From contig JAHBWH010000021.1 of NCBI GenBank assembly GCA_019637115.1, positions 1 to 64,000 on the forward strand: a DNA stretch of 64,000 nucleotides, in the 5' to 3' direction. The position numbers and the translations under genes were made by a program. Source of the DNA: Myxococcales bacterium (GTDB lineage Bacteria > Myxococcota_A > Polyangia > Polyangiales > Houyiibacteriaceae). Shown piece after piece: positions 2,843-63,503 of this stretch (within the stretch, counting starts at the first letter, position 1; each line of letters begins with the position of its first letter). Below the pieces are notes generated by a model that worked only from the letters and a program-made list of their open reading frames with translations, searched no databases and was not told the DNA's origin.

Positions 2843-2900
2843 CTCGGCGCTCCCATCGTCACGTTGCGGTCCGCCGCGCGACCGATCACGTGTAGCCCAC

Positions 2901-3056
2901 CGCCGCGGAACGCGGCAAGACGACACCGCCGCGGAGCGCGGCAAGACGACACCGCCGCGGAACGCTGCAAGACGACACCGCCGCGGAGCGCGGCAAGACG
3001 ACACCGCCGCGGAGCGCGGCAAGACGACACCGCCGCGGAGCGCGGCAAGACGACAC
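2901..3056. repeat. Six tandem 26-bp direct repeats between copZ and copA
   Basis: Six head-to-tail copies of a 26-bp unit (begins cgccgcgg, ends aagacgacac) fill most of the shared upstream region of the divergent copper genes; a partial copy runs into the copA start. Copies differ only at one or two positions (a/g at unit position 10, one t). The array is contiguous with no spacers, so it is not a CRISPR. It could be a minisatellite or a multi-copy regulator site. Confidence 0.92.
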
Positions 3057-10885: not shown

Positions 10886-10890
10886 CGCCA

Positions 10891-11053
10891 GTGCCCCCAA
10901 CCCGAAGTTCGTTGCGGGTTGCCGTGGATGATCGGCGTGGAGGTCGTTTGCCGCGCAGGCGTTGGACAGGCCGAAGCCCATTCGAGGAGGTCGGAGAGCG
11001 AGATCCGCGCCCTTGGCCGCGGATACCCGAAACGAACTTCGGGTTGGGGGCAC
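10891..11053. mobile_element. MITE-like element with 29-bp terminal inverted repeats
   Basis: A 163-bp non-coding block bounded by 29-bp inverted repeats (10891-10919 and 11025-11053, starting gtgcccccaacccgaag) that match at 28 of 29 positions. It has no reading frame of its own and sits just before the start of the 9161-10885 gene. A 2-bp ca flanks both sides, too short to be a convincing target duplication. A degenerate relative is at 1423-1502. A miniature inverted-repeat element is the best reading; no transposase is in the window. Confidence 0.72.
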
Positions 11054-22661: not shown

Positions 22662-22812
22662 GACAGCGGACGCGGACAGCGGACACGGACAGCGGACAGC
22701 GGACAGCGGACAGCGGACACGGACAGCGGACACGGACAGCGGACACGGACAGCGGACACGGACAGCGGACACGGACAGCGGACACGGACAGCGGACACGG
22801 ACAGCGGACACC
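22662..22812. repeat. 13-bp minisatellite (ggacacggacagc) between sco and ctaA
   Basis: Head-to-tail copies of a 13-bp unit ggacacggacagc, with some 7-bp truncated units (ggacagc), fill the 323-bp space between two genes of one functional group. Because 13 is not a multiple of three, all frames read through as a 13-residue repeat; none is a plausible gene. Confidence 0.88.
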
Positions 22813-22903
22813 GGACCGGACCCGGACCGGACACGACCGCGGACCACACGAGCGCGGACACGAGCCCAGAGGTTGCCGCCCCCATCACCCTGGTCCAAAG
22901 CCC

Positions 22904-32359: not shown

Positions 32360-32590
32360 CACCGAGTCCGGCGACCGAGTCCGGCGTCCGAGCCCGGCGA
32401 CGACCGAGTCCGGCGACCGGGCCCGACCGAGTCCGGCGACCGAGTCCGGGCGACCGGGCCCGGCGACCGAGTCCGGCGACCGAGTCCGGCGACCGAGTCC
32501 GGCGACCGAGTCCGGCGACCGAGTCCGGCGACCGAGTCCGGCGACCGAGTCCGGCGACCGAGTCCGGCGTCCGAGCCTGGCGACCGGGGC
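32360..32590. repeat. 13-bp minisatellite (cgaccgagtccgg)
   Basis: About 17 copies of a 13-bp unit, some with gggcccgg or gtccgagcc variants, in the 425-bp divergent region between the metalloprotease and the next gene. The unit length equals those of the arrays at 22.7 and 59.2 kb, but the sequence differs. Confidence 0.9.
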
Positions 32591-33186: not shown

Positions 33187-33207
33187 TCCTCCACCGGCGC
33201 CAGAGAC

Positions 33208-33478
33208 GGCCGCAGAACCGGACAGGCCGCAGAAACGGACACGGCCGCAGAACCGGACACGGCCGCAGAACCGGACACGGCCGCGGAACCGGACACGGCC
33301 GCAGAACCGGACACGGCCGCAGAACCGGACACGGCCGCGGAACCGGACACGGCCGCGGAACCGGACACGGCCGCGGAACTGGACAGGGCCGCGGAACCGG
33401 ACACGGCCGCGGAACCGGACACGGCCGCGGAACCGGACACGGCCGCGGAACCGGACACGGCCGCGGAACCGGACACGG
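33208..33478. repeat. 18-bp minisatellite (cgcagaaccggacacggc / cgcggaaccggacacggc)
   Basis: About 15 tandem copies of an 18-bp unit differing mainly at one position (a/g), filling the gap between two convergent genes and ending three bases before the stop of the next one. As 18 is a multiple of three it is read through in all frames, but there is no start signal or conserved protein. Confidence 0.92.
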
Positions 33479-42061: not shown

Positions 42062-43174
42062 ATGCGTTCCGTGGGCCTCGTCGTGGTCCTGATGTCGGCG
42101 ACCGCCGCCGCGCAGGACGCGCCCCACCCCGCCGAGCGGCGGGTGGGTGTCCTCGTCCTCGGCGTCACCCCAGCCGACCGCGCTCTCGCGGACGCGCTGG
42201 CGGAGGTGCTCATCGCGGCGGTGGCCGACTCGCCGGGCCCCGCGCGCATCCTCGTCGGCAAGGAGGAGCTGCAGGCCGCGCTCGGACAGGACGACGAGGC
42301 CTCGCTCGCCTGTCTGGCGTCGGCGTCGTGCCTGGGTCGTCTCGGGGTCCAGCTCTCTCTCGACGAGCTCGTCGCGGCGACCCTCGGCCGCCGGGAGGCG
42401 GGCTTCGCCTTCGACCTCGGCCGCCACGATCCACGGACGGGCGACCGCCTCGCGCACACCTTCCGAGACGTGGACGGCGTCGGCGAGGGGGAGCTCGCGA
42501 CGGCGCTCGTCGCCGCGTACGGGGAGCTCGCCCACGCGGACGGCACACGCCCGCCCGCGCGCGGCGGCGACCCGCAGGGCGGCGACCCGCAGCACGACCC
42601 GCAGGGCGGCGACGCAGCCGCAGTCCCCGAGCTCGCAGCGCTCGCCGAGCTCACCGTCACCTTCGACCCTCCGCACGCGCGGGTGACGATCGACGGAGAG
42701 CCCATCGACGGCCCCGAGCGGCTCGCGGCGGGGCGGCACGTCGTCCGGGTCGACGCCGAGGGTTACCGCGGCTTCGAGCGCGCCATCGAGCTCCGTCCCG
42801 GCGAGCAGCGGGTGTTGGATGTCCACCTGGCGGCGCTCCCTCCGCTGTCACCGCCGCAGCTCCGGCTCGATCGCGCGCTGATCTCGAGCGGGGCGGGCGC
42901 CGCCGCGGCAGGGATCGGCCTCGCTCTCGGCTTCGGCCTCCGCTCCCGCGCGCGGCCCGCCGAGGGCGCGACGCGCGCGGACGCGCAGCGCTTCGTCGAA
43001 GGGCGCGAGCGCGACGCTCGCGTCGCCAACGTGGGCTTCGTGCTCGCCGCGGTCGGCGCCGTCACCGCGACGGTAGGCGCCCTGCTGTGGCGGCGACGCT
43101 CGACGCCTCACCTCACGCCCCACGTCGCCTTCCACCCCACCGGCGCCTTCGTGGCGCTCGAGCTGCGACGATGA
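42062..43174 (+). CDS. Exported PEGA-domain protein with C-terminal membrane segments
   Basis: 370 aa. A short Sec signal (VGLVVVLMSATAAAQ) is followed by an alpha/beta region (VGVLVLGVTPADRALADALAE) and a Gly/Asp/Gln linker (GGDPQGGDPQHDPQGG). A PEGA domain (about 205-265: LTVTFDPPHARVTIDGEPID, RLAAGRHVVRVDAEGYRGF) comes next, then two hydrophobic segments near the C-terminus. PEGA domains occur in surface proteins of this lineage; the ligand is unknown. The stop overlaps the next start (ATGA at 43171), indicating translational coupling with the cysteine-rich protein. Confidence 0.82.
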   Translation: MRSVGLVVVLMSATAAAQDAPHPAERRVGVLVLGVTPADRALADALAEVLIAAVADSPGPARILVGKEELQAALGQDDEASLACLASASCLGRLGVQLSLDELVAATLGRREAGFAFDLGRHDPRTGDRLAHTFRDVDGVGEGELATALVAAYGELAHADGTRPPARGGDPQGGDPQHDPQGGDAAAVPELAALAELTVTFDPPHARVTIDGEPIDGPERLAAGRHVVRVDAEGYRGFERAIELRPGEQRVLDVHLAALPPLSPPQLRLDRALISSGAGAAAAGIGLALGFGLRSRARPAEGATRADAQRFVEGRERDARVANVGFVLAAVGAVTATVGALLWRRRSTPHLTPHVAFHPTGAFVALELRR

Positions 43175-44526
43175 GCACCGGCGCCCCCCAGCCCGCCGGC
43201 CCGAGCACGCGGCACGTGCCTCCGCCTCCGGACACGCGCGAGCCCACCCGAGCAGGGCACGAAATCGGACACGGACACGGACGCGGACACGGACTCGGAC
43301 TCGGACTCGGACTCGGACTCGGACTCGGACACGGACTCGGACACGGACTCGGACTCGGACACGGACTCGGACCTGGACACAGACACGGGACCAGACGCCG
43401 CTCCCAGCGGGCCGCGAGGCTCTTCGCGTGGTGGCTCACCTCACTCGCGCTCTGGGGGTGCACCGTCGATCGTGGTTTCCTCGACGAGGATCTCTTCCCT
43501 TGCGCGAGCCCCTCGGATTGTGGCGAAGGCTGGGGCTGCGTGCGCGCGAGCCCCTATGCCTCGGACTTCTGCGCGCCCGACTGCCAGAGCGTTCGATGTG
43601 ACGGGATCTGCACCGTCCAGGGCCGCGACGCGCTCTGCCTCCGGGGCTGCCGGCTCCAGGCGGACGGGACGAGCTCCGACTGCGGCGACGGGCTCGCGTG
43701 CGTGCGCACGAGCGCGGAGTGGGACGACGGCGTCTGCTACCCGGTGCGTCGGTGTCGAGGGTCGACCGATTGCAGCGCGGGTGAGGTCTGCCTCGCCGAG
43801 CTCGTCGGCCTGACCCCCGCGGACCCGCGCAGCAACGGCTATTATTGCGTGCCCGCCCCCGACATGGACGGAGAGTGTCCCTCGCGCTCGCGCCCGGTCG
43901 CGCTCGAGAGCGGGACCGAGCTCTGCGTGGCGACGTGCGATCCGCCCGATACGCGCTGCCCTCCGGGCTTCGGGTGCTTGCTGCAAGCGGCCGTGCTCTC
44001 GGACGTCGAGGTGCTGTGCTACCCCGGGATCTACGGCGTCCCTTGCGACGACGACACCAACTGCCTGCTCGGCCGCTGCCTCGATACGGGCGCGTCGGGA
44101 CGACAATGCACGCTCGGCTGCGACGAGGCGGCGCGGCTCGCCGGCGGCTGCGGAGGTCTCTCGAGCCTCGCGACGCACGTGAGCGCCCTGACCTTCGAGT
44201 GCGACCCCGCCGCGGCGGGCGGCGGCGGTCTCTGCGTGATCCGCTCCGGCATCGGGTTCGTCTGCACCACCCCCGAGAGCGACGCCTACGTCTGCGCCGA
44301 CGGACTCGAGTGCCGCACCTTCTCGTCGGCCTTCGACCAGGTACGCCTTTGCACGAAGGGCTGCCGGACGGATCGCGAGTGCAACGCCCCCGGGGCCTAC
44401 GTGAACTACTGCCAACCTTTCCTCGAGGAGAGCGTGTGCCTGCCACGCTTCGCCGTGGGGGCGCGCTGCTCGGACCCGCGCCAATGCCTGAGCGACCGCT
44501 GCGAGCGCGGCGTGTGCGTGGACTGA
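43171..44526 (+). CDS. Cysteine-rich protein with lipobox and N-terminal Gly-Leu/Gly-His repeat
   Basis: 451 aa if begun at ATG 43171, overlapping the PEGA stop. Residues 31-72 are a Gly-Leu/Gly-His run encoded by an in-frame hexanucleotide tract; only then does a hydrophobic segment with lipobox appear (LFAWWLTSLALWGC). The rest holds about 36 cysteines in repeated CxxxxxC patterns (CASPSDCGEGWGC, CRGSTDCSAGEVC, CSDPRQCLSDRC), like the cysteine-rich repeats of the trypsin pair. No ATG, GTG or TTG lies between repeat and lipobox, so the tract appears to be translated or the signal is reached by another route. Exported; function unknown. Confidence 0.72.
   Translation: MSTGAPQPAGPSTRHVPPPPDTREPTRAGHEIGHGHGRGHGLGLGLGLGLGLGHGLGHGLGLGHGLGPGHRHGTRRRSQRAARLFAWWLTSLALWGCTVDRGFLDEDLFPCASPSDCGEGWGCVRASPYASDFCAPDCQSVRCDGICTVQGRDALCLRGCRLQADGTSSDCGDGLACVRTSAEWDDGVCYPVRRCRGSTDCSAGEVCLAELVGLTPADPRSNGYYCVPAPDMDGECPSRSRPVALESGTELCVATCDPPDTRCPPGFGCLLQAAVLSDVEVLCYPGIYGVPCDDDTNCLLGRCLDTGASGRQCTLGCDEAARLAGGCGGLSSLATHVSALTFECDPAAAGGGGLCVIRSGIGFVCTTPESDAYVCADGLECRTFSSAFDQVRLCTKGCRTDRECNAPGAYVNYCQPFLEESVCLPRFAVGARCSDPRQCLSDRCERGVCVD
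43262..43385. repeat. In-frame hexanucleotide tract (ggactc / ggacac)
   Basis: About 20 units of a 6-bp repeat inside the 5' part of the 43171-44526 gene. Each unit encodes Gly-Leu or Gly-His. Loss or gain of units would keep the frame. Confidence 0.88.
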
Positions 44527-44683
44527 GACCCCGCCAAGACTCACGTCCATGGAGTGGATGGGGTTGGATGGGCTGGATGGGCTGGATGGGCTCGCCAACC
44601 TGGCGACCGGATCGCGAAGCGAGCTGACGACGGGTCGAAAGACCCTCTCGACTCCCGGCGAGCTTACAGTGATACTGGACGCA

Positions 44684-46771: not shown

Positions 46772-46886
46772 GACACGGCGCTCGCGCCGTGGGCGCGAGG
46801 TGCGAGGTTCGGAGCCGAGGCTCCGAGACGAGGTGCGCGGACCGCGGTGGGTGAGCGGTCGCGCGGACTCGAGAGGTTGGGCCGGT

Positions 46887-46985
46887 GTGAAGGGCCCGCG
46901 GTGCGAAGGGCCCGAAGTGCGAAGGGCCCGCAGTGCGAAGGGCCCGCAGCGCGAAGGGCCCACAGTGCGAAGGGCCAGTGCGAAA
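46887..46985. repeat. 16-bp tandem repeat (gaagggcccgcagtgc)
   Basis: Five to six copies of a 16-bp unit with a ggggccc-type centre, in the 277-bp space between the two sensor kinase genes. The unit is a near copy with one or two changes. No coding sense in any frame. Confidence 0.82.
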
Positions 46986-59159: not shown

Positions 59160-59410
59160 CTGGTCGTCGGTCCCGGCCATCGGTCCCGGCCGTCGGTCCT
59201 GGTCCCCGGCCATCGGTCCCGGCCATCGGTCCCGGCCATCGGTCCCGGCCGTCGGTCCCGGCCATCGGTCCCGGCCATCGGTCCCGGCCATCGGTCCCGG
59301 CCATCGGTCCCGGCCATCGGTCCCGGCCGTCGGTCCTGGTCCCCGGCCATCGGTCCCGGCCATCGGTCCCGGCCGTCGGTCCCGGCCATCGGTCCTGGTC
59401 CCCGGCCATC
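59160..59410. repeat. 13-bp minisatellite (ggtcccggccatc)
   Basis: About 18 units of a 13-bp repeat with periodic longer units (ggtcctggtccccggccatc, 20 bp) fill the space between the second protease and the next gene. Third array in the window with a 13-bp unit, unrelated in sequence to the others. Confidence 0.92.
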
Positions 59411-61187: not shown

Positions 61188-61576
61188 CGACGCGAACCGA
61201 AGATGACGCGCTGGTGAAGCCGGAGGACGACGCGGACGCCGAGCGCTCGTCCGCGACCGCGCGGCTCGAAGGCGCGCAGCTCGAAGGCGCGCAGCTCGAA
61301 GGCGCGCAGCTCGAAAGCGCGCAGCTCGAAGGCGCGCAGCTCGGAGGCGCGCAGCTCGAAGGCGCGCAGCTCGAGGATGCCGAGCGCGCCTTCGACGCCG
61401 GCGACTTCGCCCGCCTCCGCGAGCTCGTGGAGCCGCTCACGAAGAGCCCCGACCCCGCGGTCGCAGAGCGCGCGAAGGCGCTCCGCGCGCGGGTCGCGGT
61501 GGACCCCTTGCAGGTCGCCGTGCTCGTCGGCTGCGCGCTCTTCTTCCTGTGGGTCGTCGCGAAATACGTGCTCTGA
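61184..61576 (+). CDS. Small membrane-anchored protein with tandem AQLEG repeats
   Basis: 130 aa. After an acidic N-terminus there are about eight copies of a five-residue repeat (AQLEG, with AQLES, AQLGG, AQLED variants; residues 26-64). A helical stretch (AERAFDAGDFARLRELVEPL, TPR-like) follows, and one C-terminal membrane helix (VAVLVGCALFFLWVVAKYVL). The repeat is coded by an in-frame 15-bp tandem array. Overlaps the epimerase stop by four bases. A tail-anchored protein whose repeat number could vary; function unknown. Confidence 0.72.
   Translation: MTTRTEDDALVKPEDDADAERSSATARLEGAQLEGAQLEGAQLESAQLEGAQLGGAQLEGAQLEDAERAFDAGDFARLRELVEPLTKSPDPAVAERAKALRARVAVDPLQVAVLVGCALFFLWVVAKYVL
61258..61376. 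repeat. In-frame 15-bp tandem repeat
   Basis: Eight copies of a 15-bp unit (gcgcagctcgaaggc) inside the 61184-61576 gene, giving a pentapeptide repeat. Copies differ at one or two bases. Confidence 0.9.

Positions 61577-62201: not shown

Positions 62202-63499
<1,298 letters not shown>

Positions 63500-63503
<4 letters not shown>

Follow-up and report, generated by a model that had tools for sequence, protein, structure and literature searches.

A hexamer repeat array between an overlapping start codon and the predicted signal peptide of a Myxococcales lipoprotein gene

The lipoprotein locus and its hexamer tract

The window, as we call the whole 64,000-nucleotide stretch of a Myxococcales genome that was analysed here, carries a gene with a PEGA domain (42062-43174, + strand; Pfam PF08308, E 2e-7) that is followed on the same strand by a gene for a predicted Cys-rich lipoprotein (43171-44526; 451 aa including the extension described below). 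As the initial annotation had stated, the second gene begins in an ATGA overlap (43171-43174), in which its native start, ATG 43171-43173, overlaps the PEGA stop codon, TGA 43172-43174. Read from this ATG, 96 residues lie ahead of the predicted lipidated Cys. They begin with a non-repetitive head, STGAPQPAGPSTRHVPPPPDTREPTRAGHEI (43174-43264), and continue through a tract of GGACTC/GGACAC hexamers read as Gly-Leu/Gly-His (43265-43388) to a signal core (43393-43458) made up of basic RRRSQRAAR (43393-43419), hydrophobic LFAWWLTSLALW (43420-43455) and a Gly at -1. The lipobox LWGC occupies 43450-43461; its Cys codon, 43459-43461, is at a position kept in relatives. The tract thus stands in frame between the overlap ATG and a lipoprotein signal ending in LWG before the Cys, and the frame runs on from it into RRRSQRAARLFAWWLTSLALWG and that Cys. 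A simple hydropathy scale scores the signal as weak, and its Trp at -2 of the lipobox is outside the usual lipobox consensus; the basic end, LFAWWLTSLALW and the Cys are all present. No Pfam or NCBIfam family matched the gene product above cut-off. The extension head has no strong match elsewhere in the genome, and its derivation from another genomic site was rejected on that account.

Analysis of the tract by TRF gave a period of 6 at 43265-43372 (18 copies, 90% match) and a period of 18 that extends to 43388. Exact GGACNC units number 17, at 43267-43368 (10 GGACTC, 6 GGACAC and 1 GGACGC), and reach 19-20 once the degenerate ends are counted, in agreement with the approximately 20 first described; likewise, the product, put initially at some 40 residues, comprises 34 residues of Gly-Leu/Gly-His with one Gly-Arg, or about 41 with the degenerate ends. 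Such an array has not arisen by chance, as GGACWCGGACWC was observed 26 times in the window against the 0.13 expected from shuffles. The units vary at base 5 only, a change that is nonsynonymous in the lipoprotein frame, and variation of this confined but amino-acid-changing kind looks like that expected from copying at the level of the DNA. Because the unit has six bases, each one gained or lost alters the length by two residues and leaves the frame intact. Hairpin formation was rejected as the cause of the expansion; both as DNA and as RNA, the tract folds more weakly than shuffled sequences.

The GGACNC hexamer is stop-free in all six frames and hence an open frame across the tract is, taken alone, no evidence of translation. 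The claim that the gene has no alternative start proved correct for the stretch between the tract and Cys codon 43459, where the codon list contains no in-frame ATG, GTG, TTG, CTG or ATN, but not for the region upstream of the tract, where the sole other in-frame start codon, GTG 43216 (codon 16), lies within the head; initiation there would still cross the tract. A hidden start after the tract was rejected, not even a near-cognate codon being present, and translation through the tract would follow because the signal has no other start. A simple gene caller placed the start of the lipoprotein gene at 43540 and the codon score does not back the extension as coding; so poor a score is as expected for repeat DNA, but equally for untranslated DNA.

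The gene pair in related genomes

The PEGA gene and the lipoprotein gene were compared in 14 related genomes, which include myxobacterial and deltaproteobacterial assemblies and one labelled Sandaracinus sp. The PEGA ortholog lies directly upstream of the lipoprotein gene in all 14. In translationally coupled pairs with an ATGA overlap the second start overlaps the first stop and is kept across relatives, and it is this arrangement that was found: in every relative the start codon of the lipoprotein gene either overlaps the PEGA stop or directly adjoins it (15 of 15 genomes with this one), in junctions of the forms ATGA, GTGA, TTGA, TGATG and TGACGTG. The number of residues before the Cys is 10-25 in 13 of the 14 relatives, 44 in a genome of the same genus (G001) and 96 here, the distance in a few relatives having been counted from the printed sequence where the script chose the wrong Cys. 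The long extension is thus absent from 13 of the relatives, and G001 attains its 44 residues only; as this n-region of G001 contains an optional internal ATG, the ancestral n-region length in the genus is uncertain.

Since the relatives share the overlap start, that start is ancestral and the additional sequence lies between it and the signal. By this comparison, the gene has retained its native start, and the tract expanded within the n-region of the signal. The initial annotation had left a choice between a hidden start and a translated extension, and had looked to relatives lacking the tract for a start right before the signal. Those relatives do start there, but at the same overlap codon that opens the extended frame here; the extension is therefore downstream of the native start and not upstream of a hidden one, and it is the translated extension, rather than the hidden start, that the relatives favor. 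Compared with G001, the mature lipoprotein has kept 43 of 43 Cys, the frame is open throughout and dN/dS is about 0.22, a ratio that averages over a long time and is compatible with a very recent loss of the gene. As far as its sequence can tell, the lipoprotein gene is intact and its mature part is under purifying selection.

Hexamer arrays and candidate extended signals elsewhere in the genome

A 24-base hexamer probe gave 526 matches in this genome, 8 in G001 and none in most relatives, and its reversed control gave none. GGACNC forms many dispersed arrays, of which 221 were counted in 2.6 Mb surveyed as stretches of genome that were partly chosen for containing arrays. Tandem arrays occur at 21 per 100 kb (TRF score 80; 1.6 Mb of stretches), and arrays at score 50 and a period of up to 60 make up 1.4% of called coding sequence versus 12.7% of the remainder. 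GGACNC arrays fall outside called genes in 53 of 70 cases, an upper figure, since gene ends that bear arrays may escape a simple caller, as happened at the lipoprotein locus; those within called genes are mostly in Asp-Ser/Thr or Glu-Ser frames. In the window itself, about 35 copies of the hexamer in the opposite orientation are read as Glu-Ser at 63135-63342, inside a called gene (62202-63500).

The arrangement at the lipoprotein gene had been regarded as a single oddity. It is instead one instance of a repeat family spread across the genome, and of a pre-signal arrangement that recurs. Among the 221 arrays, with signal peptides called by a crude home-made rule, five genes have a Gly-X hexamer array that leads into a signal with no start between (the window gene, L083, L070, L066 and L124), and the other five frames yielded no convincing pre-signal case. 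L070 and L083 start in an ATGA overlap as well, and the tracts of L070 and L124 are almost pure Gly-His. L066 has an ATG within its hydrophobic core and neither it nor L124 has a clear start overlap, which makes these two the weaker candidates; both have orthologs. The orthologs of L070 in 13 genomes start directly ahead of the signal, with ATG in 12, usually after an LLRGAAP-M context that matches GAPP-M here. For L083, a GTG is retained at the corresponding position in several orthologs (DH-V-G, AD-V-G and DD-V-A, compared with GD-V-A here), and the copy in G001 has SSLA repeats of its own at that position. The survey rows for L172 were rejected because this protein resembles a response regulator (MTNVLVVDDEPDIRR) and has an ATG of its own, and several other rows without a near start were judged false (membrane proteins, oxidoreductase-like VIVVGSGLAGG and anti-sigma-like N-termini).

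Repeats before signals are not confined to the hexamer. Among 68 overlap-coupled secreted genes, 27 have at least 30 residues before the hydrophobic core and 41 are short. Tandem repeats cover at least 30% of the pre-core stretch in 12 of the 27 long genes but in none of the 41 short ones, and the corresponding figure for matched coding segments is 1.4%. Some of the 27 contain a later start and may initiate there rather than at the overlap codon. Nine of the 27 lack a start in the 30 residues next to the core: six of these nine carry tandem repeats, and two others, L089 and L101, have a dispersed palindromic element in place of such repeats. Unrelated repeats precede the signal, with no near start, in the coupled secreted genes L126 (18064, +), L102 (16313, -), L171 (15325, +) and L058 (17195, -); the repeat units of this group are 14-15-residue units, AALGG, AGG, ESSG and TW. 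Genes with an extended n-region are a minority: of 235 signal-peptide genes surveyed separately, 219 have a start codon no more than 30 residues from the core.

Proposed origin of the signal extension and its alternatives

We consider it probable that a coupled start and an expanded genomic hexamer have together produced a signal extension of about 75 residues that is translated, tolerated and cleaved off. Translational coupling would fix the lipoprotein start at the PEGA stop codon, and GGACNC, a hexamer that forms arrays genome-wide, would have expanded in the short interval separating this start from the signal peptide; with initiation held in place by the coupling, the array would be translated as an extra cytoplasmic n-region of about 75 residues. 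The Sec and lipoprotein machinery would presumably still read the basic and hydrophobic core beside the lipobox, and signal peptidase II would remove everything before the Cys, leaving the mature protein unchanged. Since it is cut off with the signal, the n-region would be only weakly constrained in sequence and changes in it nearly neutral, and repeats that are harmless elsewhere as 5' noncoding DNA would become translated behind coupled starts. Frames with an acidic or strongly basic product would probably be detrimental to export and be purged, which can explain the Gly-X bias. The explanation draws on four features apparent in the DNA: an intact gene, a start kept in relatives, a repeat origin of the tract and its recurrence in coupled secreted genes. 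A further proposal, which seems to us unlikely, treats the n-regions of coupled secreted proteins in this lineage as evolvable modules built from repeats. Their extensions of 50-100 residues, filtered by frame (neutral Gly-X kept, acidic purged), would govern when or how strongly the protein is exported, while their length drifts in two-residue steps.

The tract might alternatively be functional in itself, a Gly-Leu/Gly-His n-region under selection for slowing or tuning of targeting or for metal binding via its His, with the repeat number adjusting export. Gly-X is indeed the only frame seen before signals (five of five genes), and the almost pure Gly-His of L070 and L124 would suit such a role, but the purging of charged frames accounts for the bias without any function. 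In addition, the unit variation looks DNA-level, most GGACNC arrays are outside called genes, unrelated repeats (ESSG, AALGG and the 14-15-residue units) and the palindromic element take the same place in other coupled genes, and the relatives manage without any extension; we judge a function of the tract improbable. A very doubtful alternative is that an unusual mode of initiation, such as a non-canonical codon or internal entry, places the translation start after the tract, which would in effect be a 5' spacer. The location of most GGACNC arrays outside called genes and the normal near start of the great majority of surveyed signal-peptide genes would accord with it, but neither CTG nor ATN follows the tract, the overlap codon is the start in all relatives, and there are several genes with no near start, for which the same exception would be needed many times. 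Finally, it is most unlikely that the expansion broke expression or export, or that the tract was misassembled, for in spite of the odd LWGC lipobox, the weak hydrophobic core and the several contigs of this draft genome that begin inside such arrays, the frame is open, all Cys are conserved at the dN/dS given above, and the tract is uninterrupted within a 67.7-kb contig.

With a translated, tolerated extension, the single locus has a plain explanation; it is the recurrence that is unusual. The extended signal peptide region (ESPR) of autotransporters and two-partner secretion proteins is a long N-terminal extension before an otherwise ordinary Sec signal, which still works as the C-terminal part (PMC2805444), and the extension here similarly precedes a predicted Sec signal. 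The ESPR, however, has about 25 residues and is sequence-conserved, charged and confined to type V secretion (PMC2805444), whereas that described here has 75 residues, is repeat-built and unconserved, and belongs to a lipoprotein; searches of Pfam and NCBIfam revealed no autotransporter domain in the gene. The opa genes of Neisseria, with CTCTT repeats in the region coding for the leader peptide, also have a short tandem repeat in the signal-peptide part of a gene for an exported protein, but those pentamers shift the frame and switch expression (PMC3960869), whereas the tract, with a period of 6 rather than a unit that is not a multiple of three, keeps it. The extended n-regions are distinct from both systems in being repeat-built, gene-specific, frame-keeping and recurrent across the coupled secreted genes of one genome.

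As a feature of a coupled pair, the overlap is ordinary, and what is unusual is the growth of a repeat right behind it. Genome-wide microsatellite and minisatellite arrays in bacteria are many, mostly outside genes and strongly different between close relatives; here, some of them would have been captured as translated n-regions behind pinned starts. A literature search of incomplete coverage, and thus weak evidence of novelty, brought up no description of n-regions built from repeats in myxobacteria. Signal peptide n-regions are usually of a few residues, and both gene finders and signal predictors assume so; the present set of genes has 50-100 extra residues of repeat DNA before the signal, three of its members having been checked against orthologs with short n-regions, and such genes are easily mis-annotated. 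If expressed, they would constitute a natural experiment on how much cytoplasmic sequence can be accommodated by the Sec and lipoprotein pathways, and would exemplify a coupled start making protein out of repeats of a non-coding type.

Some minor features of the window may also be recorded. The dispersed palindromic element has a copy of approximately 160 bp at 10887-11053 (15-20 copies in 2.6 Mb); the surrounding 191 nt are predicted to fold with -110.8 kcal/mol (z -8.0), no Rfam family matched the element, and its copies make up the pre-signal part of L072, L089 and L101. The genome is unusually rich in arrays, and those of unrelated units with periods of 13-26 lie in the window at 2898-3056, 22662-22844, 32361-32586, 33206-33478, 46885-46976, 59167-59395 and 61258-61374. 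Four 9-bp TGGATGGGC repeats are found at 44555-44592, between the lipoprotein gene and a downstream PAS/GAF histidine kinase gene.
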